Below, in pieces: positions 5,327 through 32,767 of a stretch of DNA of 46,699 bases (its first letter is position 1; every line of letters starts with the position of its first letter). The position numbers and the translations under genes were made by a program. A model generated the notes under the pieces. That model was given only the letters and a program-made list of their open reading frames with translations. It was not told where the DNA came from and made no database searches. The stretch comes from a virus. The stretch is taken from positions 1 to 46,699 of the IMG/VR virus record IMGVR_UViG_3300046001_003124; one strand, written 5' to 3'.

Positions 5327-5563
5327 ATGCAGAAACTGGTAGCACTGAACGAAAACGGTCGGCGAATAGGGGAACACCACCCCTTGGCCAAGTTGACGGA
5401 CGCAGAGGTCGAGCTGGTGCATGGGATGCGCGAGGACGGCCTGACCTTGAGTGAGATCGCAAAGAAGATGGAAGTGACCAAGGGCTGCGTGTGGAAGATT
5501 CTCAACGGCTACCGCCGTGCCCAGTCCACTGCGCGCACGGTTCGTGTGTCCGTGTCCGGTTAG
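5327..5563 (+). CDS. Small HTH regulator, candidate late activator (78 aa)
   Basis: The ATG at 5327 has an AAGGG site. After a basic N-terminus (NENGRRIGEHHPLAKLTDAE) comes a sigma region 4/resolvase-type helix-turn-helix: LTDAEVELVHGMREDGLTLS, then EIAKKMEVTKGCVWKILNGY (about 23-62). It stands alone between the replication and late blocks. Its last codons contain the first GTGTCCGTG late-promoter element. Position and size fit a late-gene activator, but binding to that element is not shown by sequence. Confidence 0.75.
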   Translation: MQKLVALNENGRRIGEHHPLAKLTDAEVELVHGMREDGLTLSEIAKKMEVTKGCVWKILNGYRRAQSTARTVRVSVSG

Positions 5564-5577
5564 CACCTTGCTAAAGT
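5546..5577 (+). promoter_or_regulatory. Late promoter P1 (before TerS)
   Basis: GTGTCCGTG at 5546-5554, 16 bases, then CTAAAGT (TAAAGT 5572-5577, also an extended -10 TGC). First of six identically spaced elements. It overlaps the end of the HTH gene. The predicted start at about 5583-5585 coincides with the TerS ATG at 5585, so the mRNA is probably leaderless. Confidence 0.75.
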
Positions 5578-5584
5578 TATTCGT

Positions 5585-6049
5585 ATGGGCAAATCAATTT
5601 ACACACCGGAACTGGCACAGCGCGTACTTGACGTGCTTGAGCGCACGGGCTCGCTGCGCGCTGCGTGCCGCGAGGTTGGCATCAACCGAGAGACCGTCGT
5701 GCGCTGGGTGGTCGATGACCTCAACGGCTTCGGCGTCGCATACGCGCGATCCAAAGACATCGGCATTGACAACCTGGTCGACGAGACCCTCGAGATCAGC
5801 GACGCGCCCCCTGGGCTAAATCAGTTCGGCGGCGTTGACACTGGGCATGTGGCGCACTCCAAGCTGCGCATCGAGACCCGGCGCTGGCTGGCAGAGCGCA
5901 TGGCACCCAAGCGCTACGGCCTCAAGCAGGGCCTGGACGTCACCAACAGCGATGCGAGCCTGCAGGTCGACGAGACCACACGCAGTGCACGCGTGGCCCA
6001 GCTGCTGGCGCTGGCATCGCAGCGCAAGGACTTCGAGGATCTGGCATGA
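5585..6049 (+). CDS. terS: Terminase small subunit
   Basis: A 154-aa protein with an N-terminal HTH for packaging-site recognition (ELAQRVLDVLERTGSLRAAC, then REVGINRETVVRWVVDDLNG, about 8-50) and a C-terminal oligomerisation/TerL-contact region (RWLAERMAPKRYGLKQGLDV). Size and position immediately before TerL fit TerS. The ATG lacks a ribosome site and lies at the predicted start of P1. It is joined to TerL by a 27-residue membrane ORF overlapping both genes. Confidence 0.85.
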   Translation: MGKSIYTPELAQRVLDVLERTGSLRAACREVGINRETVVRWVVDDLNGFGVAYARSKDIGIDNLVDETLEISDAPPGLNQFGGVDTGHVAHSKLRIETRRWLAERMAPKRYGLKQGLDVTNSDASLQVDETTRSARVAQLLALASQRKDFEDLA

Positions 6050-6129
6050 GCACCGACCGGCAAATCGTCGCCGCGTTGTTGGTCTGCTGGTTGTTTGTGT
6101 GGGCGGTGATGTACGTCGCGGGGCTATGA
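6046..6129 (+). CDS. 27-residue membrane micropeptide between TerS and TerL
   Basis: The ATG overlaps the TerS stop (ATGA) and its stop overlaps the TerL start (ATGA). The product is MSTDRQIVAALLVCWL followed by FVWAVMYVAGL, a single hydrophobic helix. Double stop-start overlap argues for translation by re-initiation, perhaps to couple TerS and TerL expression. It is the same length as, and has the same arrangement as, the ORF at 2006. No function known. Confidence 0.55.
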   Translation: MSTDRQIVAALLVCWLFVWAVMYVAGL

Positions 6130-7730
6130 CCCCCACTGAAGCGCGCAACCTTGAGCGCTACCTCACCCCAGCCGAGCGCGAAGAGCTCAACGCCCTGATC
6201 GCTGCCGACATCAAGCAGCACACCTGGCGCCCCTTGCCGGGCCCGCAGACCATGGCCTATGAGTCCAAGGCTGACGTGATCGGCTTCGGTGGCGCAGCAG
6301 GCGGGGGCAAGACGGATCTGGCCATCGGCTTGGCACTCACCGAGCACTACCGCACGCAGTTCTTCAGGCGTGAAGGCCCACAGCTCACCGGCGTGATCGA
6401 TCGCTTGGCCGAGATCGTGGGCTCGCGCGACAACATCAACGGCAAGCCCGCGGTGTACCGTGACGTCGACGACAGGCTGATCGAACTCAACTCCATGCCC
6501 AACCTGGGCGATGAGACCAAGTACCAGGGCCGACCCAAGGACCTGCTGGTCATCGATGAGGCCGCCAACTTCTTGGAGCAGCAGGTGCGCTTCGTCAAGG
6601 GCTGGGTGCGTACCACCCGACCCGGGCAACGCACACGCACGTTGATGACCTTCAACCCGCCCACCAACGCCGAAGGCCGGTGGGTGATTGGCTTCTTTGG
6701 CCCCTGGTTGGACAAGCGCCACCCGATGTACCCGACACCACCGGGCAAACTGCGCTACGTGTACGTCGATCCGGAATCAGGCAAAGACGTCTGGATTGCA
6801 GACGACAACCCCAAGCCCTTCGTGATTGCGCAAGGCACACGGGTCTACGACTTCGACCCCCTGGCGCACCGGCCCGAGGAGATCGTGCAGCCTGAGTCGC
6901 GCACCTTCGTGCCCTCACGCATCACCGACAACCCATTCCTGGTGTCCACGGGCTACATGGCGCAGCTGCAGGCCCTGCCCGAACCCCTGCGCAGCCAGAT
7001 GCTCAACGGCAACTTCGAGGCCGGCATGGAGGATGACCCATGGCAGGTGATACCAACCGCCTGGGTCGAGGCGGCCATGGCGCGCTGGAAACCACGCACA
7101 CCACGCGGCGAGATGATGGCCATGGGTGTGGACGTGGCACGCGGTGGACGTGACCAGACCGTCATTGCCACACGCCACAAGACCGAGCAGAACGAACTAT
7201 GGTTCGACACGCTGCACATGTACCCAGGCAGCGAGACCCCCAACGGCAACAGCGTCGCGGGGCTGGTCATCGGTGAACGCCGTGACCTGGCACCCGTGCA
7301 CATCGATGTGATCGGTGTTGGCGCCAGCCCCTACGACGTACTCAACGAGGCCAAGCAGGACGTCTACGGTGTCAACGTGTCGGAACGGGCCAACAGCCTC
7401 GACCGCAGTGGGCGCCTGTCGTTCATGAACCTGCGCAGCCAACTGTGGTGGCAGATGCGTGAAGCACTCGAGCCGTCGCAGCACAACGGCATCGCGCTGC
7501 CTGACGACAAGGATCTACTGGCCGAGCTGTGCGCCCCACGCTGGGAGCTGTCGGGCATGACCATCAAGGTAGAAAGCAGGCAGGACATCGTCGACCGGGT
7601 AGGGCGCAGCCCCGACCGGGCCACCGCCATCATGCTGGCGCTGATCCCCACACCCAAGGTGCGCGCCATCCGTGCGATGGCTGAATCGAGCAACAGCGCA
7701 CTGGATTGGGACCCGTACGCACGCACATAG
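6126..7730 (+). CDS. terL: Terminase large subunit
   Basis: The packaging motor and nuclease, 534 aa from the ATG overlapping the preceding stop. The frame is open further upstream, but that would run through TerS out of frame. Walker A-like GFGGAAGGGKT (about 53-63), Walker B DLLVIDEAANF (about 139-149), and a C-terminal RNase H-like nuclease beginning MGVDVARGGRDQTV (about 332-345) with VHIDVIGVG further on. The length is normal for the Terminase_6 type. Packaging mode (cos, pac or headful) cannot be read from this alone. Confidence 0.93.
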   Translation: MTPTEARNLERYLTPAEREELNALIAADIKQHTWRPLPGPQTMAYESKADVIGFGGAAGGGKTDLAIGLALTEHYRTQFFRREGPQLTGVIDRLAEIVGSRDNINGKPAVYRDVDDRLIELNSMPNLGDETKYQGRPKDLLVIDEAANFLEQQVRFVKGWVRTTRPGQRTRTLMTFNPPTNAEGRWVIGFFGPWLDKRHPMYPTPPGKLRYVYVDPESGKDVWIADDNPKPFVIAQGTRVYDFDPLAHRPEEIVQPESRTFVPSRITDNPFLVSTGYMAQLQALPEPLRSQMLNGNFEAGMEDDPWQVIPTAWVEAAMARWKPRTPRGEMMAMGVDVARGGRDQTVIATRHKTEQNELWFDTLHMYPGSETPNGNSVAGLVIGERRDLAPVHIDVIGVGASPYDVLNEAKQDVYGVNVSERANSLDRSGRLSFMNLRSQLWWQMREALEPSQHNGIALPDDKDLLAELCAPRWELSGMTIKVESRQDIVDRVGRSPDRATAIMLALIPTPKVRAIRAMAESSNSALDWDPYART

Positions 7731-7731
7731 G

Positions 7732-7763
7732 GTGTCCGTGTAATAGGCAGCCCCTTGCACAAT
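7732..7763 (+). promoter_or_regulatory. Late promoter P2 (before portal module)
   Basis: GTGTCCGTG at 7732-7740, 16 bases, then GCACAAT (CACAAT 7758-7763), the most divergent -10 of the set. It lies directly after the TerL stop and 29 nt before the next ATG, which has an AGAGGA site. Confidence 0.7.
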
Positions 7764-7791
7764 GGCGCGAAACCCCTAGAGGACCCGACCC

Positions 7792-7992: not shown

Positions 7993-7994
7993 CC

Positions 7995-9973: not shown

Positions 9974-9974
9974 C

Positions 9975-10006
9975 GTGTCCGTGATCTGCCCGCGTGCCCC
10001 TACGAT
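9975..10006 (+). promoter_or_regulatory. Late promoter P3 (before capsid module)
   Basis: GTGTCCGTG at 9975-9983, 16 bases, then CTACGAT (TACGAT 10001-10006). The predicted start at about 10012-10014 falls on the GTG start codon at 10013, so the first mRNA is probably leaderless. Confidence 0.75.
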
Positions 10007-10012
10007 TCGCGC

Positions 10013-10914: not shown

Positions 10915-10930
10915 CGAAAGGTACTAACCC

Positions 10931-11926: not shown

Positions 11927-11953
11927 CCCCCGAACACTGAAAAGGTAACTATC

Positions 11954-12424: not shown

Positions 12425-12434
12425 GGTCTAGCCC

Positions 12435-12653: not shown

Positions 12654-12656
12654 GCG

Positions 12657-13007: not shown

Positions 13008-13022
13008 ATTTAAGGAACTGCA

Positions 13023-13460: not shown

Positions 13461-13463
13461 TCC

Positions 13464-14574: not shown

Positions 14575-14775
14575 ATGCAAGGCCACTGGCTCGGCCGCTG
14601 GGTGGGGCGCTGGCTTGGCGACCTGGGCGGCGCCGCCCCCAGCCCTACTTACGTCTACGCCGCCCTGGTGGTGGCGGGTGTGGGGTCTGCACACCTTACC
14701 GCAACAGGCGGCGCCACCGTTCCTACCGGTCTTATCGGGTATCTCTGGCTGGCACGGGCCCGCAGGCGCCGCTAG
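14575..14775 (+). CDS. Small W/G-rich phage protein (66 aa)
   Basis: Begins MQGHWLGRWVGRWLGDLGG, an N-terminus seen on many small phage ORFs following the LTLKQA-type protein, and ends in an arginine tail (ARARRRR). One hydrophobic stretch occurs in the middle (about 26-40). It starts 2 nt after the previous stop, and its last base is the first base of the P4 9-mer. Function unknown. Confidence 0.65.
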   Translation: MQGHWLGRWVGRWLGDLGGAAPSPTYVYAALVVAGVGSAHLTATGGATVPTGLIGYLWLARARRRR

Positions 14776-14806
14776 TGTCCGTGACTTAAACCCTCGCACC
14801 TACACT
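14775..14806 (+). promoter_or_regulatory. Late promoter P4 (before tail-tube/internal core operon)
   Basis: GTGTCCGTG at 14775-14783, 16 bases, then CTACACT (TACACT 14801-14806). The predicted start at about 14813 gives a 14-nt leader containing the GGAG ribosome site of the gene at 14827. It overlaps the preceding gene's final base. Confidence 0.75.
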
Positions 14807-14826
14807 GAGCGCCACCGGAGACCCGC

Positions 14827-17666: not shown

Positions 17667-18117
17667 CATACAAATAAGGGCTACAGTCCCCGAGGACATT
17701 GCGCTGCTTGCTACCAATATGAGAGCAAGCGATACCGCCGAGGTGGCCGCCTGCGGACTCACCTCTGCGCAAGCAGCTCAGATTGGCGTCACCCGTTCCG
17801 TGCTGTGCTGGTCTGCATTCGCCGACGGCGAGCTCGGTTGCATCATCGGCTGCGCACCGTTGTCCGTCCTCGGTGGCCTTGGCTCCCCGTGGATGCTGGG
17901 CACCCCGGTGCTCGACAAGCACAGCCGTGTCCTTGTGCGCCGCACCCCCCGTTACATTGCTGAAATGCTAAAGGCCTTCCCGCATTTGGTAAACCACGTA
18001 CACGCGGACAACAAGACCAGCGTCCGCTGGTTACGTCAGGTCGGGTTTTCCATCGGAAAGGCAGAACCGTTCGGCACGCTGGGCGAGCCCTTTCACCGTT
18101 TTGAAATGAGAACCTGA
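17659..18117 (+). CDS. T7 gp13-like GNAT-fold internal protein (DUF2833)
   Basis: 152 aa, GTG start overlapping the nozzle gene. GNAT-like arrangement: IRATVPEDIALLATNMRASD at the N-terminus, a central beta-hairpin, and VHADNKTSVRWLRQVGFSIG (about 114-133), the usual acyl-CoA-side C-terminal motif. DUF2833/gp13 relatives occur at this place in podoviruses, required for core assembly or host interaction. Whether it acetylates anything is unknown. Confidence 0.82.
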   Translation: MADIQIRATVPEDIALLATNMRASDTAEVAACGLTSAQAAQIGVTRSVLCWSAFADGELGCIIGCAPLSVLGGLGSPWMLGTPVLDKHSRVLVRRTPRYIAEMLKAFPHLVNHVHADNKTSVRWLRQVGFSIGKAEPFGTLGEPFHRFEMRT

Positions 18118-18605: not shown

Positions 18606-20237
18606 ATGGCAACCGTCCCCACCTATGGCACCCCCCGGGTGCAAGAGCAGGCGCTGCGCCCGAACTACCAGAACAACGTCGACGTCAGTAGCGGCAGCCG
18701 CGCACTGGCGCAAAGTCTGGGCCAGGTGTCCGAGGTCGTCGACCGCATCGCTACGCGCGACGCCGAGACCAAGGCCAACGCTGCCGACACCGAAATCTCA
18801 GCCGGCTGGCTGCAGTGGGACGCCGAGAACCGCAAGAAGTACCAAGGCGGCAACATCGACGGCTACGCCCCCGCCGCTAAAGAGTGGTGGGACAAGGCCG
18901 CGCAGACCTACGGCGAGAAGCTCGACCCGATGGCCAAGGCCATGGTCACCAAGAACCTGATGCGCCGGCAAGCGGTGTCGATGGGCTCCGTGGCCCAGCA
19001 CACTGAAGCCGTCAAAGAATCCCACGCCGACGAAACCGCCGTCGCCAACATCAACACCACGATCCAGTTCGGTGTCACCACCGGCGACGTGGCGGGTGCG
19101 TCCGCACAGGTGCGCAAGCTCGCGTCTGAAGTCGGGGCACGCAAGGGCTGGACCACCGAGCAGGTGCAGGCCGAGACCGGCAAGAACCTGTCAGCCCTGC
19201 ACCTGGCGCAGATCAGCAAGCTGGCCGAGTACGACCCGCAGAAGGCGCAGGCCTACTACGACGCGAACAAGGAAGAGGTGGGCTTCGCCCAGCAGCCCCG
19301 CGTCGAGGAGGTGCTGCGCAAGGAAGTGGACAACCAGTTCGCCATCACCTTTGCCGGTCAGAACGCGGGCAAACCCCTGGCCGAACAGATCAAGCTCGCC
19401 GCCGATATCACGGACCCCAACCGGCGCGAGAAGGCGATCCACGAAATCAAGCTCAACCACGCCCTGATCAAGGAAGCGGAGGCCGAGAAAGAACGCACCG
19501 CCTCCGATAAGGCGTGGCAACTAGTCGGCCAAGGTAAGCGCGTGCCCGAGGCCATCCTCGCCACCATGGACGGCAAGGGCCGCGTGCAACTGCAGGAACA
19601 CCTGCAGGCGCGGGCCGATCGCCTGGCCGTTGGCAAGCCGGTCAAGACCAACATGGCCACCTACATCGACCTGCGCGAAAAACTCGCCGCGGGCGAGAAG
19701 GTGAACCTGAAGGCATACACCGAGAAAGTCGGCGGCGCCCAGATGGAGCAGCTGCTCGACATCCAGTCCGCAGCCAGCAAGCCCGGCACCGCCAAGCAAG
19801 ACAGCATGCTCACCGATGAGGGGCGCATCTCCACCGCGCTCACCGGCATGGGTGTCGATAAGAGCAAGGACCCAGACACTGCGGCCAAGTTCAGCATTGA
19901 AGTCGACCGCCGCGTGCGTGCGCTGTCCGCATCGAAGGGGGACAAACCTGTCACCCCCGATGAGAAGCAGAAGATCGTCGACGGCGTATCGCTCGACAAG
20001 GTGTTCGTGGACGAGTGGGGCCGCGACCCTGAGAAGCCTCTGTTCCAACTGACACCGGACGAACTGAAAAAAGCCTACGTCACCGTGGGGGGCAAGAACA
20101 TCCCGGTGGCCAGCGTACCCGCGGCCGACCGTGCCGAGATCATCCGTGGACGCCGTGCGCGTGGGCTGTCAACCACTGAGCAGTCGGTCGTCGAGACCTA
20201 CGTCAAAGCAAACAAGAACCCCGAAGGGAAATGGTAA
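18606..20237 (+). CDS. Internal virion protein C-like (T7 gp15-like)
   Basis: 543 aa, almost entirely helical and charged. The N-terminus (QNNVDVSSGSRALAQSLGQV) and SAGWLQWDAENRKKYQGGNI (about 62-81) resemble gp15-type core proteins, which form the periplasmic ejection tube. The stop overlaps the ATG of the giant protein (TAATG), implying balanced synthesis of the two core proteins. Confidence 0.82.
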   Translation: MATVPTYGTPRVQEQALRPNYQNNVDVSSGSRALAQSLGQVSEVVDRIATRDAETKANAADTEISAGWLQWDAENRKKYQGGNIDGYAPAAKEWWDKAAQTYGEKLDPMAKAMVTKNLMRRQAVSMGSVAQHTEAVKESHADETAVANINTTIQFGVTTGDVAGASAQVRKLASEVGARKGWTTEQVQAETGKNLSALHLAQISKLAEYDPQKAQAYYDANKEEVGFAQQPRVEEVLRKEVDNQFAITFAGQNAGKPLAEQIKLAADITDPNRREKAIHEIKLNHALIKEAEAEKERTASDKAWQLVGQGKRVPEAILATMDGKGRVQLQEHLQARADRLAVGKPVKTNMATYIDLREKLAAGEKVNLKAYTEKVGGAQMEQLLDIQSAASKPGTAKQDSMLTDEGRISTALTGMGVDKSKDPDTAAKFSIEVDRRVRALSASKGDKPVTPDEKQKIVDGVSLDKVFVDEWGRDPEKPLFQLTPDELKKAYVTVGGKNIPVASVPAADRAEIIRGRRARGLSTTEQSVVETYVKANKNPEGKW

Positions 20238-23200
20238 TGGTCAGTAAATACGACGCGATCCTTGACGAGGAGCAGGGAAGCGCCCCGGCGACTGGCCCCA
20301 GCAGCTACGACACGGTGCTCGACCAAGAGGTCCAGATGCAGCAACGGGCTGCGCGTACGGTGTTCGAGAAGGCGCTGGCGGTTAACCCCGACCAAGCGGC
20401 CAGCTCCAAGAAACTGATGACCACCACAGGCCTGCCTCTGGCCGTGGTGGAGCGCAACCTCGACGAGGTCAAACGCAAGGACCAGGCCCGCATGCTGGAC
20501 CTGGCGCAGATGGCACAGGATTCTCCCGTCCTGGCGCGTCAGATCATGGACCCAAGTTTCACCAACCAAGCGCACGACGACGTCAGCACCCTCGGCAGTC
20601 TTGAGCAGTTCCTGCGCGACACCGGCGGGTCCATGAAAGCCGGCGTATTCAACGCCAGCAAAGGCGCTGCCGGGCTGTTCCGTGCGGGTGCCGAGCTCAT
20701 CGCGCCCATACTCGATCCGCTCGCTGGAACGATCTTGCCAGAGAACCCGCTGCGTCGTGTCGCTGCTGGGTTTGCAGAAATGGGAGCCGGAGCCGGCGCC
20801 ATCGCCAAGGCCGCCACACCAACAACCACCGGCGTGCTGTCGGGGGGTTTCCAGTCGGGTGTTCAATCCTTGACGCAGAACCTGCTCACCCTGCCCGCCG
20901 CGTTCCTGCCGGGTGGACAAGCTGCTGCGCTGACGGGCATGGTCGGCTTCACCGGCGGCCAGTCCTACCAGGACGCCCGCGAGAAAGGCCTGTCAATGTC
21001 GCAGGCGCTGCCGTTCGCCGCCTCGCAGGCTGCGATCGAGTACGCCACCGAGAAGATGCCGCTGGAGCAGTTGATCGGCGGCATCAAGGCGGGTGCCCCC
21101 CTCCTGCAGACCATAGCCAAGCAGATGGCGCTGGAGATACCGGGCGAACAGGTCGCCACCATCTTGCAGGATCTCAACGAGTGGGCGGTGCTCAACCCTG
21201 AAAAGACATTCCGGTCTTATCTGGAAGAACGCCCCAACGCTGCAGCGCAGACCCTGATCGCCACGATCGTCGGCACCGGCGGCAACATCCTGGTGGCCAA
21301 AGGGGTGGAAGCCGCCACCAAGCGCCTGATGGGTGACGCCTACGACGCAGGCCAAGCCGACACCCACGCGGCACAGTTACAGGACGCATTCAAGAACGCG
21401 CTCGACTCGAAGCTGCGCGAACGCAACCCCGACGACTTCCGCACGCTCATACAGAAGATGGCCGACAACACCGACGGCGCACCCAAGGAGGTGTACGTCG
21501 ATGCCGAGGTGCTGAACCAGCTTGCTCCAGAATTGATAGCACAACTCCCAGAGTCCGTGCGGGCCGCACTGCCCGACGCGCTCGCGGCCAACGACGTGGT
21601 GGCGATCCCTGTTGGGGATGTGCTCACCGTCGCACCCGGCACGCCGATGGAGCAGATGCTGGTCGAGCACGCTCGCATCGGTGACGTGCGCGCCATGAGC
21701 CAGTTCGAGGCTAAAGAAGCCGGCGCCAAGGCGCAGGAGTTCCTCGCGCAAGAATCCCAGCGCGTGATCCAGCAGGCTGTTGACCAACGGGCCACGCAAG
21801 AATCACACGACCGCGTCAAGCAGACGCTGCTCGACCAGCTGAACTCTGTCGGGCGAAATCGCACTGCGGTGAATGAGACCACGGCCACGCTCTACGCGTC
21901 GCTGTACACCACCCTGGCGGGCCAGCTCGGCATCACGCCCGAGGCTGCGTTCGCGCTGCACGGCGTTAACGTCACAGGCAAGACAGGGCAGGGCGGGGTG
22001 CTCAACACCGGCGGCATGGCGGGCGAGATGTCCGTCGAGGGCTACCACTTCAGCGCCGCTGACCGCACGACGCTCTCCACCGCAATGTACGGCACGGGTC
22101 TCAAGGGCAGTGCACGCGATGAAATCATGAACCACCCCGACCAGCGCCTGAAAGAGCGCCTGTCGTTTTACTTCGACAAGGGCACGGGCATCCGCCCCGA
22201 GTCTGGTGTGGGTGGCCGCGCACACCGGGTGCAACTGTCGGGCGTGTACGACGCCGACGCAGATCCGCTGAAGCTGCGCACAGGCAACGCCCGCGAGCTT
22301 GAGTCCAAACTGCTGGACCTGGGCTACAAGGGTTACGCCAACCGCATGGACGGCACACAGCCTGGCCAGGTCATCATGCTCGGTGCGCAGAACTTCCAGC
22401 CCGAGCTGCTGGGTGCGTTATCGCAGATCACTACCGGCCAGCGCGTGGCGCCGATCGCAGCCGCTGCACCGCAGTGGCAGACCCAGGCGAGCGGTGAGCC
22501 TGCCATGCTCGCGGCCAAGCTCGAGCGCATGCAGGCGATGCCCGCCTGGGCTGGCTACGACCTGCGCATCGAGGGGCGTGAGCTTCAGTCGATGCAGAGG
22601 CAAGACACCTACGCGCAGCAGTCGCAGGCACTGCAGACTGAGATCGAGCAGGCCGGCGGCAAGGTCAACGACATCCTGCAAGTCGACCAGCTGATCAGCA
22701 GCGAAGAGATCCCGACCATCACGTTGCAAGACCTGATCGGCCTGGACATCTTCCCGACGATCGCCGACCGCACAGCCGCCGCCGCGGTTTACTCGGGCAT
22801 CGACTCTTCCCGCCTGGACGTGGCAATCCCGCTGCTGGGCGGCCCCCTGTTCCCCCTGCGCGAGACCAACGTCGAAGCAGGTGTGGTGTGGGCCAACCGC
22901 GGCAAGGGCGTCACCAGCCAGAAGGCTGCCAAGCTCAAAGCCGGCGCCAACTACATGATGGTGCTGCTCGGCGATGCCGACATGCACCAATCGAACAGCA
23001 CCGTGGCCGCCGCGGTCATGGGCACGTTAGAGGCCTGGCAACGCGACGGGCGTCTGGGCGTCGAACATGTTGAAGCCCTGGCCGAACTCGTGCGCACCGC
23101 ACCCTCCGCCGATACCGTCGTCAAGAGCTATCTGGAGAACTTCCCAGGCTTTGACGACGCCGCGATCATGCACGCCTATATGGACGGCATGTCATTCAAT

Positions 23201-26200
23201 GCGCGCAAGCGCGTGATCGAACTGCTGGCGTCCAAGGAAGCCATGGTGCTGGGCGCGCCACCCATGAACCTGATTCTGGACGCCACCCGCGAGCCCTCGA
23301 TGGCAGGCCACCGCTGGGGTGACGGCGTCATCCTGCTCGAGGTGGACCAGACCAACACCCAAGTCGAGCTCGGCACTGAAGGCACGACCGCACACCCCGA
23401 CTTTCCGGTCGGCATCCGCGGTCGCGTGGTCGGTAAGCTCAATGCCCCGATCAGCTGGCAGGTGCTGTGGCAGGACTGGCTCAACGCCAACAACGGCGCG
23501 TCCCCTCGCCGCGCGTTCGAGCTGTCCAAACCCGTCGTCACCGTGACGCAAGAACTGATCGACCGCATCGGCCCGATCAACCAGACCAACATCGACAGTG
23601 CACGCCAGGCCCGCCTCGCTGCCGACTTCGCCGCCGACAACTGGCGCCAGACCGGCGTGCCGGTGAAGCAGGGCGGCGCGTCGCCACAGGAGTTTGTTGA
23701 CGCCATTCTGACAACCGCAGCGCGCCCGGTGCTCACCGAGTATTCGCTCGACCAGGTCAAGCAGGGCGCCAAGGACGGCAGCTTCAAGGTGTTCCAGCTC
23801 GGTGCCGATGGCCGAATCTTCTTCGGCATGAAGTACGGGGACCCGGGCTACGCCGCCGACTACGGCATCAACATCCCCGAGATCACGGCCAACGAAGTGG
23901 CGCTGGTCTCTGTGGTCAACAACGAGCAAGGTGCCCGCGGTATCGGTGCACCTGCCGTGGTGCTCAAGGCGCTGCAGGAGGGGGCCACGGTGCTGGACTG
24001 CTTCGCGGTCAAGAACGAAAAGTTCACCGACGGCTTCCTGCCCGAGATCTATGCAGCGTTCGGATTCGAGAAAGTTGCAGAAATACCTTTCGCACCGGAG
24101 TATTACAGCGCGCAAAAGTTAGCAGATGCTGTAAAATTCTGGAAAGACACCACCCCGGGTTTCGACCCTGCAACCAACGGCTACCCGCCGCTGGTCATTA
24201 TGAAATGGAAGGGCACCGATGCCGACAGAACAGACATCATCAATCGATACCTACGCGATGGCGTTGCAGGTGTCCTCGCTCGAGGAGCTTCAGAAAGTTC
24301 CACGGCCAACGCTGATCGGGTTCTTTCATCTGTTGGAGCAGAAGGCGCTGCGCAAGGGGGCACCTCTGACGCACAACGAGATCCTGGGAATCAAGGAGAT
24401 AGCGCTGGAGCACGTATCGCATCCCGCGCTCGCGGCACTGTCCAAGGCATTGCCGGCCTCAACGACGGCGAACTCCGAAACCTCGGACTCACCGTTGCCG
24501 ACCGAACCGCAGTCCAACGCGGACTCGGCGCCCCCGTCACAGACAACGCCCCTGCCGTAGCCCAAGCACCCGCAGGACCCGAGACCCTAGAGCAAGGCCC
24601 CCGCGGCACGTTCAACCCCAAGACCTTCGAGCTCGCGTTAAACGAGGGCTCGAACATGTCCACCGTGCACCACGAGATGGGGCACGCGTACCTCGAGATC
24701 ATCACCAAGATCGCCAGCGAGCCCGGCGCACCACAGGGCATCATCGACCAGGTCGAGCGCTTCCTGAAGTGGCAGGGCGTTGCAGATCTGGCGACATGGC
24801 AGGCGATGACGCTGGACCAGAAGCGCCCACACCATGAGGCACTGGCCGAGAGCTACGAGCATTACCTGCTGACAGGCAAGGCCCCGAGCCTTGAACTGCA
24901 GCCCCTGTTCCGCAAGCTCAAGGCCTACATGCTCAACGCCTACAAGACGCTGAAGGCGTTCTTCGAGGCCAACCCCAACGTCGCGCAGAAGCTGCCACCC
25001 GAGATGGTGCAGTTCTATGACCGCATGCTGGCCAGCGAGGAGCAGATCGCGCAAGCCGAGGAGGTGGCTGGGCTGCTGCCCGAGCAGGACGCCACCGCCG
25101 AGGCAGTTGAGAAGCTGACCGCGCGTTCGCTGCGGGACCTGAAGTGGACGGTGAACGCCCGCAACAGGGAGATCAAGAAGCTGCAGGCGCAGGCCAAGGC
25201 CTTGCGCAAGGGCATCGAAACCGAGGTCACCGCCGAGGTGAACGCGATGCCCGAGTTCCAAGCCAAGGAGATGCTGGACAAGACCCGCAAGGAAAACAAA
25301 GAACAGCTCAACGACACCGAACTGGCCATCGTTGCCGACGCCTTCCAGTACGCGAGCGTCGAGGAGATGCTCCGTGCCATCGACGGCGCTGGCAAGAAGG
25401 CCGACGTGATCGAGGGTATGACCGACCAGCGCATGCTCGAGGAGCACGGCGACCTGATCGACCAACGTGCGGTCGAGGCCGCGGCCAACGAGGCCGTGCA
25501 CAACGAAGCCCGTGCCCGATCGCTGGCCACCGAACTGCGCAGCCAAGCCGAGATGCTGAACCCGCGCACCGACACGGGTGAGGTGAACGCCAAGGGCAGC
25601 AAGATCACGGTCAACGCGATCGTCGAGGCGGCCAAGCAGTTCGCTGCCAACGTGGTCGCCCGTACCCCGCTCAAGGATCTGAAGGCCAAGGCCTGGCAAC
25701 ACACCGCGGCCGAGCGCCGCGCTGGCAAGCGTTGGACCGAGGCTACCGCCGCTGGCAAGACGCAGGACGCGGTCAAGGCCAAGCAGGACCAGGTGCTCAA
25801 CAACGCCGCCGCCAAGGCTGCGCTGGACGCGCAGACCGAGATGCGCAAGATCCTCGAGTTCTTCAAGCGCGTGATCAAGGACAACAACGAGAAGGTGGTC
25901 GACAAGGGCCGCGACCCTGACGTCGTCAACGCAGCCCGTGCGGTGCTGGCAGCCTACGGTGTCGCGCCAAAGGCGGGCAAGACTGCGCTGGAGTACATGG
26001 ACCTGGTCGAGAAGAACGACCCTGCCATGTTCGCAGCTCTGCAGCCCTCTGTGCAGGGTGCGCTCAACATGGCCCAGCCCCTGGACGCGCTGACCATGGA
26101 CGAGCTGCGCGCCTTGCACGAGGAGATCCAGGGCATGTGGCACCTGGCCAAGCGCTCGCGCCAGATGGAGATTGACGGCAACATGCTGGACATGCAAGAC

Positions 26201-28339
26201 GCCGAGGACGAATTGCAGGCGCGCATGCAGGTGCTGGGTGTGCCCCTCACCATGCCTGGCGACTCCGGTGCTGTGACCAAGGCCGAGGAGCGGGTGCGCA
26301 AACTGCAGGGCGTGCGCGCCTTGCTGCGCCGGGTGGAGCAGTGGGCCGAGGGGATGGGCAAGCCGTTCACCCGTCTGGTGTTCCAGCCGATCAAGGACGC
26401 CGCCGACGCCTACCGTGCCGACCGCACGGTGTACCGCAAGAAGTACCAGGCGCTGGTGGACAAGGTCGCGCCAGCACTGACCAAGGGCCTGATCGAAGCG
26501 CCCGAACTGGGTTACACCTTCGGTAAGGGCCACAACGGCATCGGCCACGCCGAGCTGCTGCACGCGATCCTGCACACCGGCAACGAGAGCAACAAGCGCA
26601 AGCTGCTGCTCGGCCGCGGCTGGGCCCTCGAGAACGCAGACGGCACACTCAACACCGACCGCTGGGACGCGTTCCTCAAGCGCGCCCACGACACGGGCCT
26701 GCTGAACAAGGCGCACTACGACTTCGCCCAGGGTGTGTGGGATCTGCTGGAAGAAACCAAACCGCTGGCGCAGAAGACGCACCGCGACGTGTTCGGTCGC
26801 TACTTCGCCGAGGTCACCGCCGACAGTTTCACCACACCGTTCGGCGACTACGCTGGCGGCTACGTGCCAGCGCAAGCTGACCCGCGCATCGTGCAAGACG
26901 CTGACCTGCGCAAGCTGACCGAGTCTGAAAACGAGAACATGAGCTTCAGTTTCCCAAGCACCAGCAAGGGATTCACCAAGGGCCGCGTCGAGTACAACCG
27001 CCCGCTGCTGCTGGACCTGCGCACGATCGGCCAGCACCTGGACAAGGTGCTGCTGTTCTCGCACATGGAGCCTGCCGTGCGCGATGTCAACAAGCTGCTG
27101 TCCCGCAAGGGCGTGGCCTACTCGCTGGGCCGCATCGACCCGGCTGCCTACTCAGGCATGCTGACCCCCTGGCTGAACCGCAGCGCACGTCAGGTCGTCG
27201 AGACCCCGGTGGTGGGCGACGGCGGGATCTCGCGCGTGCTGTCCGCAGCCCGCGGGCGTGCAGGCATGGCACTGATGTTCGCCAACGTCAGCAACACGAT
27301 CCAGCAGCTCACCGGCTTCAGCACGGCGGCGATCAAGGTGAAGCCCGCCAGCATGATGGCCGCCACCGCGCAGTTCATCAGTGGGCCGAAGAAGATGGCG
27401 CAGGCCGTCAGCGAGGCCAGCGTGTTCATGGCCGGGCGCATGGACAATGAGATCAGCGCGATAAATGACGCGATGGACGCGATCCTGCTGGACCCGAACC
27501 TGTACGAGAAGGCGCAGGCCTGGAGCCAGAAGCATGCGTACTTCATGCAGACGGCGATGGCCAACACCATGGAGCCGATCATCTGGACCGGCGCCTACAA
27601 CGACGCCCTCGAGCGTGGCGACAGCGAACGCGACGCGGTGCGCTTTGCCGACAGCGTGATCCGCACCACACAGGGCTCGACCCTGCCAGAGGACGTGAGC
27701 CGAATCGAGACCGGCCCGGCCTACGCGCGAATCTTCACGCAGTTCATCGGCTACTTCAACATGATGGCCAACACCAACGCCACCGCGTTGCAGCAGATCT
27801 CGCAAGAGATCGGGCTGAAGAAGGGCGCCGGCAAGGCGATCGGCGTCGTGACGCTGGGCCTGCTGATCCCGCTGTGGGTGGCCGAAGCGATTGCACAGGC
27901 CATGCGCGGCGGTCCTGACGATCCCGACAAGGACGGCTACCTCGATGACTGGCTGGCCGCCGTGTTCGGCATGGGCACGATCAAGGGCACGCTGGCCATG
28001 GTGCCGTTCATCGGGCAGCTGGCCAACGCCGGGATCAACCGATTCAACGGCAACCCCGCCGACGACAAGGTGAGCCTGTCCCCCGCGGTCAGCTTGCTGG
28101 AGTCAGCGGTGGGCGTGCCGGTCGACGTGTACAAGGCGATCACCGGCGATGTGAACAAACGCAACATGGTGCGGGACGTGGCCAGCGCCGTTAGCTTGGC
28201 CACCGGGCTGCCAGCGATCGCCATCGCGCGACCACTGGGCTACCTGGCGGGCGTGGAGGACGGCAAGATCAAACCCACGGGCCCTGTCGATGCAACACGC
28301 GGTGCGATCACAGGAACACCGAGCCCCGCCAGTAAGTAG
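20237..28339 (+). CDS. Giant polyvalent internal virion protein (gp16-like) with ART-like and metallopeptidase domains
   Basis: About 2,700 aa. I start at 20237, the ATG overlapping the previous stop; 20231 is an alternative. Order: repeated YDxxLDxE at the N-terminus; Ala/Gly hydrophobic region (about 150-370); ADP-ribosyltransferase-like polyvalent domain (about 600-720, FYFDKGTGIRPESGVGGRAH); GNAT-like region (about 1155-1324); low-complexity linker (1325-1440); zinc metallopeptidase with HEMGH (1479-1483) and downstream AESYEHY (1538-1542) as possible third ligand; coiled coil (about 1600-2000); conserved C-terminus with a hydrophobic helix (about 2530-2555). It should be ejected with the DNA and act on the envelope or host proteins. 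Enzyme activities are predictions. Confidence 0.85.
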   Translation: MVSKYDAILDEEQGSAPATGPSSYDTVLDQEVQMQQRAARTVFEKALAVNPDQAASSKKLMTTTGLPLAVVERNLDEVKRKDQARMLDLAQMAQDSPVLARQIMDPSFTNQAHDDVSTLGSLEQFLRDTGGSMKAGVFNASKGAAGLFRAGAELIAPILDPLAGTILPENPLRRVAAGFAEMGAGAGAIAKAATPTTTGVLSGGFQSGVQSLTQNLLTLPAAFLPGGQAAALTGMVGFTGGQSYQDAREKGLSMSQALPFAASQAAIEYATEKMPLEQLIGGIKAGAPLLQTIAKQMALEIPGEQVATILQDLNEWAVLNPEKTFRSYLEERPNAAAQTLIATIVGTGGNILVAKGVEAATKRLMGDAYDAGQADTHAAQLQDAFKNALDSKLRERNPDDFRTLIQKMADNTDGAPKEVYVDAEVLNQLAPELIAQLPESVRAALPDALAANDVVAIPVGDVLTVAPGTPMEQMLVEHARIGDVRAMSQFEAKEAGAKAQEFLAQESQRVIQQAVDQRATQESHDRVKQTLLDQLNSVGRNRTAVNETTATLYASLYTTLAGQLGITPEAAFALHGVNVTGKTGQGGVLNTGGMAGEMSVEGYHFSAADRTTLSTAMYGTGLKGSARDEIMNHPDQRLKERLSFYFDKGTGIRPESGVGGRAHRVQLSGVYDADADPLKLRTGNARELESKLLDLGYKGYANRMDGTQPGQVIMLGAQNFQPELLGALSQITTGQRVAPIAAAAPQWQTQASGEPAMLAAKLERMQAMPAWAGYDLRIEGRELQSMQRQDTYAQQSQALQTEIEQAGGKVNDILQVDQLISSEEIPTITLQDLIGLDIFPTIADRTAAAAVYSGIDSSRLDVAIPLLGGPLFPLRETNVEAGVVWANRGKGVTSQKAAKLKAGANYMMVLLGDADMHQSNSTVAAAVMGTLEAWQRDGRLGVEHVEALAELVRTAPSADTVVKSYLENFPGFDDAAIMHAYMDGMSFNARKRVIELLASKEAMVLGAPPMNLILDATREPSMAGHRWGDGVILLEVDQTNTQVELGTEGTTAHPDFPVGIRGRVVGKLNAPISWQVLWQDWLNANNGASPRRAFELSKPVVTVTQELIDRIGPINQTNIDSARQARLAADFAADNWRQTGVPVKQGGASPQEFVDAILTTAARPVLTEYSLDQVKQGAKDGSFKVFQLGADGRIFFGMKYGDPGYAADYGINIPEITANEVALVSVVNNEQGARGIGAPAVVLKALQEGATVLDCFAVKNEKFTDGFLPEIYAAFGFEKVAEIPFAPEYYSAQKLADAVKFWKDTTPGFDPATNGYPPLVIMKWKGTDADRTDIINRYLRDGVAGVLARGASESSTANADRVLSSVGAEGAAQGGTSDAQRDPGNQGDSAGARIASRARGTVQGIAGLNDGELRNLGLTVADRTAVQRGLGAPVTDNAPAVAQAPAGPETLEQGPRGTFNPKTFELALNEGSNMSTVHHEMGHAYLEIITKIASEPGAPQGIIDQVERFLKWQGVADLATWQAMTLDQKRPHHEALAESYEHYLLTGKAPSLELQPLFRKLKAYMLNAYKTLKAFFEANPNVAQKLPPEMVQFYDRMLASEEQIAQAEEVAGLLPEQDATAEAVEKLTARSLRDLKWTVNARNREIKKLQAQAKALRKGIETEVTAEVNAMPEFQAKEMLDKTRKENKEQLNDTELAIVADAFQYASVEEMLRAIDGAGKKADVIEGMTDQRMLEEHGDLIDQRAVEAAANEAVHNEARARSLATELRSQAEMLNPRTDTGEVNAKGSKITVNAIVEAAKQFAANVVARTPLKDLKAKAWQHTAAERRAGKRWTEATAAGKTQDAVKAKQDQVLNNAAAKAALDAQTEMRKILEFFKRVIKDNNEKVVDKGRDPDVVNAARAVLAAYGVAPKAGKTALEYMDLVEKNDPAMFAALQPSVQGALNMAQPLDALTMDELRALHEEIQGMWHLAKRSRQMEIDGNMLDMQDAEDELQARMQVLGVPLTMPGDSGAVTKAEERVRKLQGVRALLRRVEQWAEGMGKPFTRLVFQPIKDAADAYRADRTVYRKKYQALVDKVAPALTKGLIEAPELGYTFGKGHNGIGHAELLHAILHTGNESNKRKLLLGRGWALENADGTLNTDRWDAFLKRAHDTGLLNKAHYDFAQGVWDLLEETKPLAQKTHRDVFGRYFAEVTADSFTTPFGDYAGGYVPAQADPRIVQDADLRKLTESENENMSFSFPSTSKGFTKGRVEYNRPLLLDLRTIGQHLDKVLLFSHMEPAVRDVNKLLSRKGVAYSLGRIDPAAYSGMLTPWLNRSARQVVETPVVGDGGISRVLSAARGRAGMALMFANVSNTIQQLTGFSTAAIKVKPASMMAATAQFISGPKKMAQAVSEASVFMAGRMDNEISAINDAMDAILLDPNLYEKAQAWSQKHAYFMQTAMANTMEPIIWTGAYNDALERGDSERDAVRFADSVIRTTQGSTLPEDVSRIETGPAYARIFTQFIGYFNMMANTNATALQQISQEIGLKKGAGKAIGVVTLGLLIPLWVAEAIAQAMRGGPDDPDKDGYLDDWLAAVFGMGTIKGTLAMVPFIGQLANAGINRFNGNPADDKVSLSPAVSLLESAVGVPVDVYKAITGDVNKRNMVRDVASAVSLATGLPAIAIARPLGYLAGVEDGKIKPTGPVDATRGAITGTPSPASK
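24219..24560 (+). CDS. Possible overprinted gene inside the giant gene (113 aa, +1 frame)
   Basis: Open in the +1 frame from an ATG with GGAAGGG five bases upstream, a better ribosome site than most genes here have. The product (ALQVSSLEELQKVPRPTLIG, then FFHLLEQKALRKGAPLTHNE) looks like a globular helical domain for 70 residues before a Ser/Thr/Pro tail. The giant protein in the same bases reads as a low-complexity Ala/Gly/Arg/Ser linker, so the nested frame seems the more constrained one. A one-mismatch copy of the TAGCA palindrome lies 88 bp upstream. Confidence 0.5.
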   Translation: MPTEQTSSIDTYAMALQVSSLEELQKVPRPTLIGFFHLLEQKALRKGAPLTHNEILGIKEIALEHVSHPALAALSKALPASTTANSETSDSPLPTEPQSNADSAPPSQTTPLP

Positions 28340-28340
28340 G

Positions 28341-28372
28341 GTGTCCGTGTTGGGGCTCCTGCCGCCTACCAT
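28341..28372 (+). promoter_or_regulatory. Late promoter P5 (before tail fibre)
   Basis: GTGTCCGTG at 28341-28349, 16 bases, then CTACCAT (TACCAT 28367-28372). The predicted start at about 28379 leaves a 20-nt leader with an AGGAG site. A 9-bp inverted repeat straddles the start (see the hairpin entry). Confidence 0.75.
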
Positions 28373-28392
28373 CTTGGTAATCTGCAGGAGCC
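28354..28392 (+). promoter_or_regulatory. Hairpin that would hide the tail-fibre ribosome site in read-through RNA
   Basis: GGCTCCTGC (28354-28362) is perfectly complementary to GCAGGAGCC (28384-28392), which contains the AGGAG site of the fibre gene. RNA reading through from upstream has both arms; RNA starting at P5 (about 28379) has only the second. The fibre gene should thus be translated mainly from P5 transcripts. This is inference from pairing. Confidence 0.55.
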
Positions 28393-28398
28393 TCCCAC

Positions 28399-29652: not shown

Positions 29653-32033
29653 CCGGATTCCTTGATGGCGGCGTGATTGAGGAAGGTGGCGGCTACCAAA
29701 TCCAGCGCAGCCTGCGTTTGCGGGCGAGTGCTACGGCGTATTTGAACCGCACCACGCCAGCCTCTGGCGGCAACCGCGACCAGTCGTGGGGTTATGTGGG
29801 TTTCAAGCGTGGAACCATTGGCGTACTCCAGTACCTGCACGGTGCGGACACTGCCGCTGCGGACGCTCTCTACCTTGATGCCAACGATAAGCTCTGCTTT
29901 GATGTAGCGGGAACAAACCGGCTAATTTCTACGCAGGTATTCCGCGACCCCATTGCGCACGGGATATTTATGTGGGGGTTTGACGCCGCCAACGGCACAG
30001 CCGCAAGCAAGCTGCGCATCTACTACTCAGGTAACGCGGCCAGCACATTTGCCGAAATAACATCTTGGGCGACAGATACCCGAAGCGGCATCACGACCGG
30101 CACAGCAAAGACGATGCACAACAGCGTCGCGCATTTCATTGGTAAAAATCCAACCGCTGCTAATGGGTGGGCTGACGGCTACGTGTCGGAGCATCGCGTA
30201 GGTACTTGGACAGGTTCGCCGCCAACACCCGCAAACTTCGGTGGCGTCAGTGCAATTACCGGAGTTTGGGCGCCGTCGGGTACTTCTGCGGCCTACGGAA
30301 CGTCAGGCAGCTATGCCGACTTCAGCGATCCAACTTCAGCCACCACGCTATGCTACGACCGTTCAGGCAACGGCAACAACTGGACCCCTAACAACATCAG
30401 CACGACTGCTGGAGCCACTTACGACTCCATGCTCGATGTGCCACTGGGTGGTGGGGGTGCGGAGCGGGGGAATTACTGCACGTTGAATCCGTTGGCAAAG
30501 GCGTCATCGACTCTCAGCGAGGGAAACCTCAATGCCACAGTATCGGGGATGACTCTCGGGACAATATCAACCGCATCTGGCAAGTGGTATTGGGAAGTGC
30601 TGGTTACCTCAGACCCATCACCGGGTTCCTTCATTGGTGTTGCAGATGCAGACGACGCAACAAAGTACCTTTTCTACTACGCATACAGCGGCAGCCGATA
30701 TATTGCTGGTGTGCAGACGGGTTATGGGGCAACTTACGGTGCAACGGACACCATTGGAATTGCGCTTGATGCAGACGCTAAGACTGTCACTTTCTACAAG
30801 AACAACGTGTCACAAGGGGTTTTAGCTCTGTCCCTTATTGGCACTACGTCTGGTAATTGGGTTCCCGCGACAAATAACGGAAGTACCCCGCAGACTATTG
30901 CATGTACCTTCGGCCAGCGCCCCTTCACCTACACCCCACCCACAGGCTTCAAGGCACTGCACACCGGCAACTTGCCAACGCCAACTGGCGCTGCGCTGGA
31001 GCCTAAGAAGCATTTTGATGTGGTGACGTACCTTGGAAATGGAGGCGCAAAAGCCATTACGGGTGTGCAGTTCCAGCCCGACTTGGTGTGGCCGAAGGAT
31101 CGCGGTGTGGCTTTGAATCACCGCTTGGTAGATTCAGTGCGCGGCACAACCAAGGTTCTGTCGTCAAACACCACTGATGCGGAACGCACGATTCCAGACG
31201 CGAACGACACCTTCACATCCTTTGATTCTGGTGGCTTCACGCTTGGTGCTGGTCAGGGCATGAACTCCAATGGGGATAGCTATGTTGCATGGCTCTGGAA
31301 AGCAGGCGGCGCAGCAGTCACGAACAACGCAGGCAGCATCAGCTCTCAGGTGAGTGCGAACGTGGCGGCGGGGTTCAGCATCGTGACTTACACGGCAGAC
31401 GGTGTATCGGGTCGCACTATCGGGCATGGTCAGGGGGCCGCGCTCGACCTAGTGATGATAAAGGCCCGCACAGGAGTGGCATCTAGCTGGGTTGTTGGGC
31501 AGTCTGCAACGGGATGGGCCAACAGGCTGTATCTTGAGTCTACCGCAGCGCAGGTGAGCGACAACACCGCATGGTTATCAACTGCTCCGTCGTCGTCCGT
31601 AATTACGTTGGGCGGGTTCGCAGGCCTAAACGCAGGTGGGACTCAGTATGTCGCCTGCTGTGCCCGCAGTATTCCCGGATACTCCAAAATCGGGAGTTGG
31701 ACAAATAACAATTCAGCAGACGGAACATTTGTCTATTGCGGATTCCGACCCCGGTGGATCATGCTGAAAAACTACGACAACTCGGAGGCGTGGTACGAGT
31801 TCGATTCTGCGCGACAGGGTTACAACATCGCTCCCGCAGCGTCAAGTTGGTTACAGCCAAACACTGCAAGCGCCGAAGGCGGGTGGGCTGCAACAGCAAC
31901 GATTGATCTAGTTGCCAACGGCTTCAAGATTCGGACAACCAACCCTGCATCTGGTGAAGTTTCGTTCGGCACTCGGAGTTACGTTTTCTACGCCATAGCA
32001 GAAGCCCCATTCAAATACGCACTAGGACGCTAA
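29649..32033 (+). CDS. SPRY-containing tail/receptor-binding protein (794 aa)
   Basis: N-terminal beta-rich LamG-like region, then a SPRY-type domain (about 310-425: ASGKWYWEVLVTSDPSPGSF, then DTIGIALDADAKTVTFYKNN). The C-terminal half matches a phage tail domain (DUF7483-like) with FQPDLVWPKDRG, FDSGGFTLGAGQGMNSNGDS and YVAWLWKAGG. Likely the distal receptor- or polysaccharide-binding component. Less GC-rich than the core genes. Co-translated with the upstream fibre and followed by a small chaperone-like gene. Confidence 0.83.
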   Translation: MTGFLDGGVIEEGGGYQIQRSLRLRASATAYLNRTTPASGGNRDQSWGYVGFKRGTIGVLQYLHGADTAAADALYLDANDKLCFDVAGTNRLISTQVFRDPIAHGIFMWGFDAANGTAASKLRIYYSGNAASTFAEITSWATDTRSGITTGTAKTMHNSVAHFIGKNPTAANGWADGYVSEHRVGTWTGSPPTPANFGGVSAITGVWAPSGTSAAYGTSGSYADFSDPTSATTLCYDRSGNGNNWTPNNISTTAGATYDSMLDVPLGGGGAERGNYCTLNPLAKASSTLSEGNLNATVSGMTLGTISTASGKWYWEVLVTSDPSPGSFIGVADADDATKYLFYYAYSGSRYIAGVQTGYGATYGATDTIGIALDADAKTVTFYKNNVSQGVLALSLIGTTSGNWVPATNNGSTPQTIACTFGQRPFTYTPPTGFKALHTGNLPTPTGAALEPKKHFDVVTYLGNGGAKAITGVQFQPDLVWPKDRGVALNHRLVDSVRGTTKVLSSNTTDAERTIPDANDTFTSFDSGGFTLGAGQGMNSNGDSYVAWLWKAGGAAVTNNAGSISSQVSANVAAGFSIVTYTADGVSGRTIGHGQGAALDLVMIKARTGVASSWVVGQSATGWANRLYLESTAAQVSDNTAWLSTAPSSSVITLGGFAGLNAGGTQYVACCARSIPGYSKIGSWTNNNSADGTFVYCGFRPRWIMLKNYDNSEAWYEFDSARQGYNIAPAASSWLQPNTASAEGGWAATATIDLVANGFKIRTTNPASGEVSFGTRSYVFYAIAEAPFKYALGR

Positions 32034-32035
32034 TC

Positions 32036-32452
32036 ATGCAATACCACCCCGAATCAAACATCTACGTCCAAGACGGTGAAGCCTTCGTGCTGAACGGCAC
32101 TCAGTACCCAGCCAATTGGGACAAGGCAAGCCTTGGCTTCATCGAAGTCACTACCGTGGGAACCCGTGAGAACGATGCCTACTACTGGGTCAGCGAGGAA
32201 GTGAAGGACGGTGTTCGTATCATCACCAACACGCCCAAAGACCCGGAGATGATTGCGCAAATGGAGTCGGCAAAGAAGCTGGCTGAGATTGATGCTCTGG
32301 AGCGTAACGCCTTGATGCCCCGAGCCACCCGCGAGTTCATGCTGTTGATGATGCAGTCGATGGCAACACCGGAGCAGCTTGAAGCAAACTTTGGGTACAA
32401 AGCGGTCAAAGCATTTGACGAGCAGATCAACGCTCTGAGAGCTGCGCTGTGA
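32036..32452 (+). CDS. Tail fibre assembly/chaperone-like protein (138 aa)
   Basis: ATG 2 nt after the receptor-binding gene. The N-terminus (YHPESNIYVQDGEAFVLNGT) is a short beta domain, and the C-terminus is helical (MPRATREFMLLMMQSMATPE, then a QLEANFGYKAVKAFDEQINA stretch). The size, position and helical C-terminus fit small proteins encoded behind fibres that fold or cap them. The specific partner is inferred from adjacency. Confidence 0.7.
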   Translation: MQYHPESNIYVQDGEAFVLNGTQYPANWDKASLGFIEVTTVGTRENDAYYWVSEEVKDGVRIITNTPKDPEMIAQMESAKKLAEIDALERNALMPRATREFMLLMMQSMATPEQLEANFGYKAVKAFDEQINALRAAL

Positions 32453-32727
32453 CGCTGTTGCTTGCACTCCTGTACCCACTCGCAGTCCAGTTTGAGCGCG
32501 GAGGCTGGTGGCGTTTGCTTGCTCCAATCACGCTGTTCACGCTTGCGATCGACGTAATCGCTACCCACACCGAGCTTGCTCTGATCTGTGGCTGGCCGCG
32601 CAAAGGCGAGTGGACTTTCAGCACCTGCCTGCTTCGCCTTCGATACCGGGGTGACGGCATCGGAGTGATGTGCAGACTTGTGATTGATTACCTGAATTTC
32701 TGGGCACCTGATGGGAGGCACGTCTAG
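32449..32727 (+). CDS. Membrane protein near lysis genes (92 aa)
   Basis: GTG start overlapping the previous stop (GTGA). Two hydrophobic segments (LLLALLYPLAV near 2-12; WWRLLAPITLFTLAIDVIAT at 20-39), then a basic, aromatic C-terminus (WPRRGE-like WPRKGEWTFSTCLLRLRYRG). Similar small membrane proteins are encoded beside lysis cassettes in betaproteobacterial phages. Could be a holin-like or accessory protein; not a certain holin. Confidence 0.7.
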   Translation: MTLLLALLYPLAVQFERGGWWRLLAPITLFTLAIDVIATHTELALICGWPRKGEWTFSTCLLRLRYRGDGIGVMCRLVIDYLNFWAPDGRHV

Positions 32728-32735
32728 CCCCGCCA

Positions 32736-32767
32736 GTGTCCGTGTCGTCGTCGCTGCCCACTACCAT
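32736..32767 (+). promoter_or_regulatory. Late promoter P6 (before lysis operon)
   Basis: GTGTCCGTG at 32736-32744, 16 bases, then CTACCAT (TACCAT 32762-32767). Predicted start at about 32774, 22 nt before the ATG at 32796, which has no obvious ribosome site. Confidence 0.75.

Follow-up and report, generated by a model that had tools for sequence, protein, structure and literature searches.

Candidate late promoters and a putative helix-turn-helix activator in a BPP-1-like podovirus

The P2 Ogr/delta and Mu C/Mor proteins are small phage activators that act on several late operons through shared boxes and work with the host sigma70 RNA polymerase; their boxes lie farther upstream than a -35 element and are often dyads, and Ogr is a zinc-finger protein. 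At the middle promoters of phage T4, a MotA box centred on -30 stands in for the -35 element, and AsiA displaces sigma region 4 (PMC6755090; review PMC7403470). Here we describe six DNA elements in the IMG/VR virus record IMGVR_UViG_3300046001_003124 (46.7 kb; the window is its whole stretch of 46,699 nucleotides), which carries the structural gene set of Bordetella phage BPP-1. Comparative sequence makes it highly probable that these elements are late promoters at which a phage helix-turn-helix (HTH) protein of 78 amino acids (aa), encoded at 5327–5563 on the plus strand, acts as an activator that takes over recognition of the -35 region, while the host sigma factor reads the -10 hexamer.

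By analogy, the T4 middle promoter is the nearest known arrangement: in the window, too, the box appears to replace the -35 element and host sigma would read the -10 hexamer, a likeness that holds by geometry alone. Unlike the MotA boxes at -30, those of the window are centred about -34 and serve late genes, and the window protein consists of a single HTH domain that is, on this comparison, unrelated to MotA: Pfam scans of it and of 57 relatives list generic HTH families, with no MotA among those listed. The window shares with the P2 and Mu systems a small putative activator and boxes common to several late operons; unlike theirs, however, its box is single, non-palindromic and placed at -35, and its protein has only one cysteine.

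Six elements of one geometry at late-operon starts

The exact 9-mer GTGTCCGTG occurs six times in the window, at 5546, 7732, 9975, 14775, 28341 and 32736, always on the plus strand and never on the minus strand (expected mean 0.86, maximum 4, in 100 dinucleotide shuffles), just as the original prediction had reported. Its further claim, that exactly 16 unrelated bases separate each copy from a -10-like heptamer, also holds at every site; the heptamers are CTAAAGT, GCACAAT, CTACGAT, CTACACT, CTACCAT and CTACCAT for sites 1 to 6, all of the form C/G-YAnnnT. A YAnnnT hexamer therefore begins 17 nucleotides (nt) after the 9-mer in six of six sites; with a background of 0.0176 per position, this agreement at one preset spacing has a chance probability of ~3e-11. 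When one mismatch is allowed in the 9-mer alone, 27 matches are found against 20 expected and the enrichment is no longer clear, so the signal is carried by the exact word together with the spacing. The window thus has a shared box at a fixed distance from a -10 hexamer, in one orientation and before several late operons.

Every site lies at the end of a gene and ahead of a late gene or operon, and the sites divide the late region into units much as had been proposed. Candidate promoter 1 (5546–5577; 9-mer 5546–5554, -10 hexamer TAAAGT 5572–5577) precedes terL and the small terminase gene terS, the latter a phrog_1482 match; its predicted +1 is at 5584 and the ATG follows at 5585. This promoter overlaps the last codons of the HTH gene, V-S-V (GTG TCC GTG), and orthologous sites are present in relatives. 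Candidate promoter 2 (7732–7763; 9-mer 7732–7740, CACAAT 7758–7763) precedes the small open reading frame (ORF) 7792 and the portal gene, with a predicted +1 at 7770 and a leader of ~22 nt. Ahead of the genes for a Bbp19-like protein, the protease and the capsid lies candidate promoter 3 (9975–10006; 9-mer 9975–9983, TACGAT 10001–10006), whose predicted +1, 10013, is the first base of the GTG start codon. Candidate promoter 4 (14775–14806; 9-mer 14775–14783, TACACT 14801–14806) would serve tail tubular proteins A and B and the internal virion proteins from a +1 at 14813, giving a 14-nt leader with GGAG, and candidate promoter 5 (28341–28372; 9-mer 28341–28349, TACCAT 28367–28372) would serve the tail fibre from a +1 at 28379, giving a 20-nt leader with AGGAG. 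Candidate promoter 6 (32736–32767; 9-mer 32736–32744, TACCAT 32762–32767; predicted +1 32774) precedes the lysis genes, which include an endolysin-like protein and a holin; the small membrane protein downstream has its first ATG at 32796, and the GTG at 32736 that is mechanically listed as an ORF start falls within the promoter. All six are on the plus strand.

A seventh site, GTGTCCTTG-N16-TTACATT (17927–17958, plus strand), lies in an internal virion protein gene and is weak. The site and its spacer are conserved in relatives, as coding constraint may explain; because it stands within conserved coding sequence, we do not claim it as a promoter.

The arrangement is conserved among the window's close relatives, defined as 24 IMG/VR records that each code for a protein closely related to the 78-aa HTH protein. 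The pattern GTGTCCGT-N18-TAnnnT is present in 23 of these 24, with 47 matches at late-operon starts and a single orientation per genome, as compared to one match for the reversed control pattern. In the window and ten relatives, eight of which are at least 38 kb long, 46 of 59 late-strand copies of GTGTCCGT have YAnnnT at spacing 17, as compared to none of the three on the other strand. The sites stand ahead of the same genes as in the window, and the unusual heptamer of site 2, GCACAAT, is likewise kept before the portal operon. The original prediction was to be abandoned if relatives of like gene order lacked the 9-mer or carried it at random positions; instead the motif was found at late-operon starts, and the fixed geometry and conservation together support late promoters with a -35 element that is not of the sigma70 kind.

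The exact 9-mer does not extend beyond this clade, where variants take its place, and the family consensus is about GTRYNCRTR. A search for GTGTCCGT with the -10 pattern in BPP-1, Caulobacter phage Jess A, zth2-2, MW202722, MW202640 and DC33 found none; variant boxes are present there instead. In BPP-1 there are exactly four copies of GTGCCCGTG, each on the late strand, and they precede terS, a GNAT gene, bbp19 and the fibre gene bbp9; the standard hexamer stands at 17 nt in three of these, and the fourth has AAAACT. The box is GTGCCCGTA in MW202640 and GTACCCGTA in MW202722, DC33 and zth2-2, and GTGCGCATG in Jess A, where three copies lie on the late strand and a fourth on the opposite one, and where the -10 hexamers are looser. 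De novo counting of 6-mers with a -10 hexamer gave the first hint for MW202640, but in Jess A, zth2-2 and BPP-1 repeats within coding sequence dominated the counts.

Several hundred further loci were gathered by portal-based scans, since an alignment of the diverse HTH proteins has too few conserved stretches to search with. Genome-specific variants, including GTGCCCGTG, GTGCGCATG, GTACCCGTA, GTGCACGTA and others, occupy equivalent late-operon starts in the more distant relatives, BPP-1 and Jess A among them, nearly all 17 nt from a -10 hexamer. When the 9-mer was read by geometry alone, from a YAnnnT ending 5–8 nt before the start codon of the terS or Bbp19 homologue, most loci with such a hexamer returned a GTRYNCRTR-type word whose middle letters were phage-specific. 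As a control on spacing, the same search was run at 14–20 nt over the 184 HTH-encoding loci longer than 12 kb: 17 nt gave at least two consistent sites in 142 loci and at least three in 90, as compared to at most seven and at most one, respectively, at 14–16 and 18–20 nt.

The HTH protein and its covariation with the box

The gene for the HTH protein sits between the replication genes and the late genes and adjoins site 1 on its upstream side. The window and BPP-1 share the gene order primase, small HTH protein, terS, terL, portal, Bbp19, protease, capsid; in BPP-1 the equivalent protein, Bbp27, lies in the same place between primase and terS and is 45% identical, placing the window protein in the Bbp27 family; Bbp27 is annotated as 'endonuclease' in NC_005357. 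A structure model contains a three-helix HTH core flanked by a strand on each side (mean predicted local distance difference test score, pLDDT, 78.7; ~87–93 over residues 31–60); in this confidently modelled core, helix 3, the predicted recognition helix, spans residues 52–60.

The protein resembles sigma70 region 4 in that its HTH would be expected to read the -35 major groove at a 17-bp spacer from the -10 hexamer, and it scores 23.7 bits against Sigma70_r4 (PF04545). That score, however, lies under the cut-off of 24.1, only 3 of 58 HTH relatives match the family at E<=0.01, and the fold matches lie elsewhere, so we rejected membership and kept region 4 as an analogy. Sequence libraries returned generic HTH families only, apart from one family match to homing-endonuclease DNA-binding domains. 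Searching PDB folds with the model yielded Pax, resolvase and Tc3-type HTH domains, none of them significant; a search of viral predicted structures yielded many DNA-binding domains of phage homing endonucleases, most of these matches also being weak. This likeness to the HNH and GIY-YIG homing endonucleases agrees with the label given to Bbp27, but, unlike those enzymes, the window protein is a DNA-binding module alone, with a fixed place between primase and terS: no nuclease domain, of the HNH type or otherwise, was matched in Pfam, and its 78 aa are filled by one HTH and the flanking strands. The protein is therefore best described as a stand-alone HTH resembling homing-endonuclease DNA-binding domains, not a fragment of sigma.

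Box and protein occur together. Where 5 kb or more of sequence lay upstream of the portal, repeated boxes were found in 123 of 159 loci that have the HTH gene and in 1 of 49 that lack it (Fisher 7e-23); a smaller, earlier set had given 59 of 75 and 0 of 33. They also vary together. Of all residues of the HTH protein, residue 57 covaries most strongly with box base 5: across 125 dereplicated loci, the excess mutual information of this pair is 0.96 bits, about twice that of the next best residue, its neighbour 56 (0.43 bits). Lysine or histidine at residue 57 goes with C at base 5 (53 cases), aspartate, glycine or serine with G (39 cases), and arginine, tyrosine or asparagine mostly with A; an A at box base 3, in turn, goes mostly with glutamine or lysine at residue 56.

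These loci are related to one another, and kinship was controlled by pairs and by portal identity. In 60 disjoint pairs of nearest relatives, a difference at residue 57 accompanies 95% of the 21 differences at base 5 and is seen in 15% of the 39 pairs that agree at that base (Fisher 1e-9), the sharpest contrast among all columns. When base 5 was predicted from residue 57 using only training loci below 80% portal identity, 83% of the predictions were right, as compared to 63% from the nearest portal and a baseline of 48%. We set aside a covariation between base 4 and residues near 72, because the codons of these residues double as the terS promoter in many genomes.

One natural exchange is seen in two loci, L231 and L232, whose portals are 99% identical while their HTH helices read KSTVRDI and KGAVAKI, respectively. 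The boxes before the GNAT gene and bbp19 are GTGCGCGTA in L231, as compared to GTGCCCGTT and GTGCCCGTA in L232; the -10 hexamer and start of bbp19 are identical. The two loci are ~93% identical downstream from the GNAT gene (after 7.74 kb) and diverged upstream (about 5.0–7.74 kb). Within the similar block, the box and spacer of the bbp19 promoter have changed to suit the HTH allele, and its -10 hexamer and start have been kept.

The covariation and this exchange point to a cognate protein of the phage, with DNA-reading residues fitted to the box; it is likely that the tiny HTH protein reads the box and that the two change together between phages. The original prediction had left the reader as either a phage activator or a host factor, and it is the phage activator that these results favour.

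Proposed mechanism and alternatives

In the mechanism we propose, each promoter would consist of the 9-bp box and a sigma70-type -10 hexamer, the box covering about -38 to -30 with its centre at -34 if +1 lies 7 nt past the hexamer. The HTH protein would bind the box through its third helix and bring host RNA polymerase to the promoter, with host sigma70 reading the -10 hexamer. Because the box fills the place of sigma region 4, the protein most likely displaces or substitutes for that region at -35; K57 is the proposed reader of base 5, at -34, where the recognition helix of region 4 normally sits.

Several observations weigh against this mechanism. Thirty-six of the 159 HTH loci show no repeated motif by our method, and some have a one-base shift. 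The protein falls below the cut-off of every curated family, so contact with RNA polymerase cannot be read from homology. With training loci below 65% portal identity, residue 57 predicts base 5 in 56% of cases against the baseline of 48%, so part of the residue-base code is lineage-bound, and partial Mantel correlations are small (r about 0.1). Moreover, because a GT..T skeleton and a spacing of 17 nt were used to collect the covariation sites, the sets are not fully independent of the hypothesis, although base 5 was left free.

A host factor, either an alternative sigma or a host activator, might instead read the 9-mer and leave the HTH protein another role, and both the host sigma70 type of the -10 hexamers and the absence of a phage RNA polymerase among the genes annotated in the window would suit this. 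The 9-mer, however, varies between phages of related Betaproteobacteria and tracks one phage HTH residue, which is not expected of a host factor; loci without the HTH gene lack the box, and L231 and L232 differ in box and HTH allele despite near-identical portals. We consider this very improbable, and hardly less so that the HTH protein is a repressor with the 9-mers as operators within ordinary promoters. Many HTH proteins are repressors, and the box overlaps the footprint of RNA polymerase; with the box in place of their -35 element, however, these promoters would have none of their own, and the almost invariant distance from box to hexamer, which a stereospecific contact with RNA polymerase needs and an operator does not, favours such a contact. 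The HTH gene also lies at the early-late boundary, the usual location of phage late activators. More improbable still, by a clear step, is that the 9-mers are oriented DNA-processing signals for packaging, recombination or replication: all the sites are co-oriented in the late region, as such signals might be, but they occupy the junctions between genes ahead of operons, keep a fixed distance to a -10 hexamer and are linked to start codons.

What remains concerns the mode of activation. Sigma region 4 could stay beside the HTH protein, as in ordinary class II activation, or the HTH protein could require an AsiA-like phage partner, and to this variant we give a real but minority share of belief. 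T4 MotA acts with AsiA, which displaces region 4 (PMC6755090; PMC7403470), and homology to region 4 is not established for the HTH protein; on the other side, a box at -38 to -30 covers the six bases that region 4 would contact, and joint binding in one groove seems hard. In its strongest form, displacement by the HTH protein would make it a minimal, re-programmable substitute for region 4: a 9-kDa protein related to the DNA-binding domains of homing endonucleases would read -35 while region 2 of sigma70 reads -10, by a code in which residue 57 sets base 5 and residue 56 sets base 3, giving the phages private late promoters and several leaderless mRNAs. We advance this form tentatively, holding it about as probable as the variant with region 4 retained.

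Leaderless transcripts and the late programme

Distances from the -10 hexamer to the first start codon peak sharply at 6–7 nt (for ATG, 75 of 217 aligned sites), with a second cluster around 19–28 nt. The 6–7 nt class comprises chiefly terS and the Bbp19 homologue, together with the GNAT gene in BPP-1-like phages. Since their start codons coincide with the predicted +1 or adjoin it, leaderless mRNAs are predicted for these genes; in the window, the spacing predicts a leaderless or nearly leaderless mRNA for terS (ATG 5585) and a leaderless one for the Bbp19-like gene (GTG 10013). In BPP-1, where bbp24, bbp26 and bbp19 lie on the minus strand, a leaderless reading implies a terS start downstream of the annotated start of bbp26. 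In the open-access papers searched, on late promoters of BPP-1 or Rauchvirus, on bbp27 and on leaderless phage late genes, we found no prior description of this system and no late promoters for BPP-1 and its kin.

By its gene content the window phage is a BPP-1-like podovirus, and the portal shares 54% identity with the BPP-1 protein. In bacterial genomes, close relatives of the portal come mainly from Burkholderiales and other Betaproteobacteria, so a betaproteobacterial host is likely. The DNA primase gene (2654–5176, plus strand; phrog_16950, E=0) lies 5' of the HTH gene, in the same order as in BPP-1. A giant late protein of 2702 aa with an LPD22 polyvalent-protein domain (20231–28339) occupies the position of the giant proteins of BPP-1-like phages. 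The leftward arm (36364–45216, minus strand) encodes a thymidylate synthase-like protein, a helicase, a DNA polymerase, a gp2.5-like single-stranded DNA-binding protein and an exonuclease, and a repressor-like protein at 1123–1539 on the minus strand suggests a lysogeny switch. Two of the compared records call for comment: Limnohabitans phage DC33 (PQ492659.1) is filed under Inoviridae, a taxonomy that looks wrong for 39 kb with the gene content of a BPP-1-like podovirus, and Caulobacter phage Jess A (MK942064.1) has a terminase large subunit gene annotated at each end of its linear record, which probably reflects a terminal repeat or an artefact of the record.

Together, these analyses propose a late programme, promoters and activator, for BPP-1, the model phage in which diversity-generating retroelements are studied, and its podovirus relatives, and suggest a likely function for Bbp27, currently annotated as an endonuclease. 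Dozens of natural activator and box pairs offer a test of whether one helix residue sets the base preference at -34, and of whether a small phage protein can take over recognition of the -35 region. The box and its spacing give a practical means of marking late operons when these phages and prophages are annotated, and they predict leaderless terS and Bbp19 mRNAs in phages of Betaproteobacteria.

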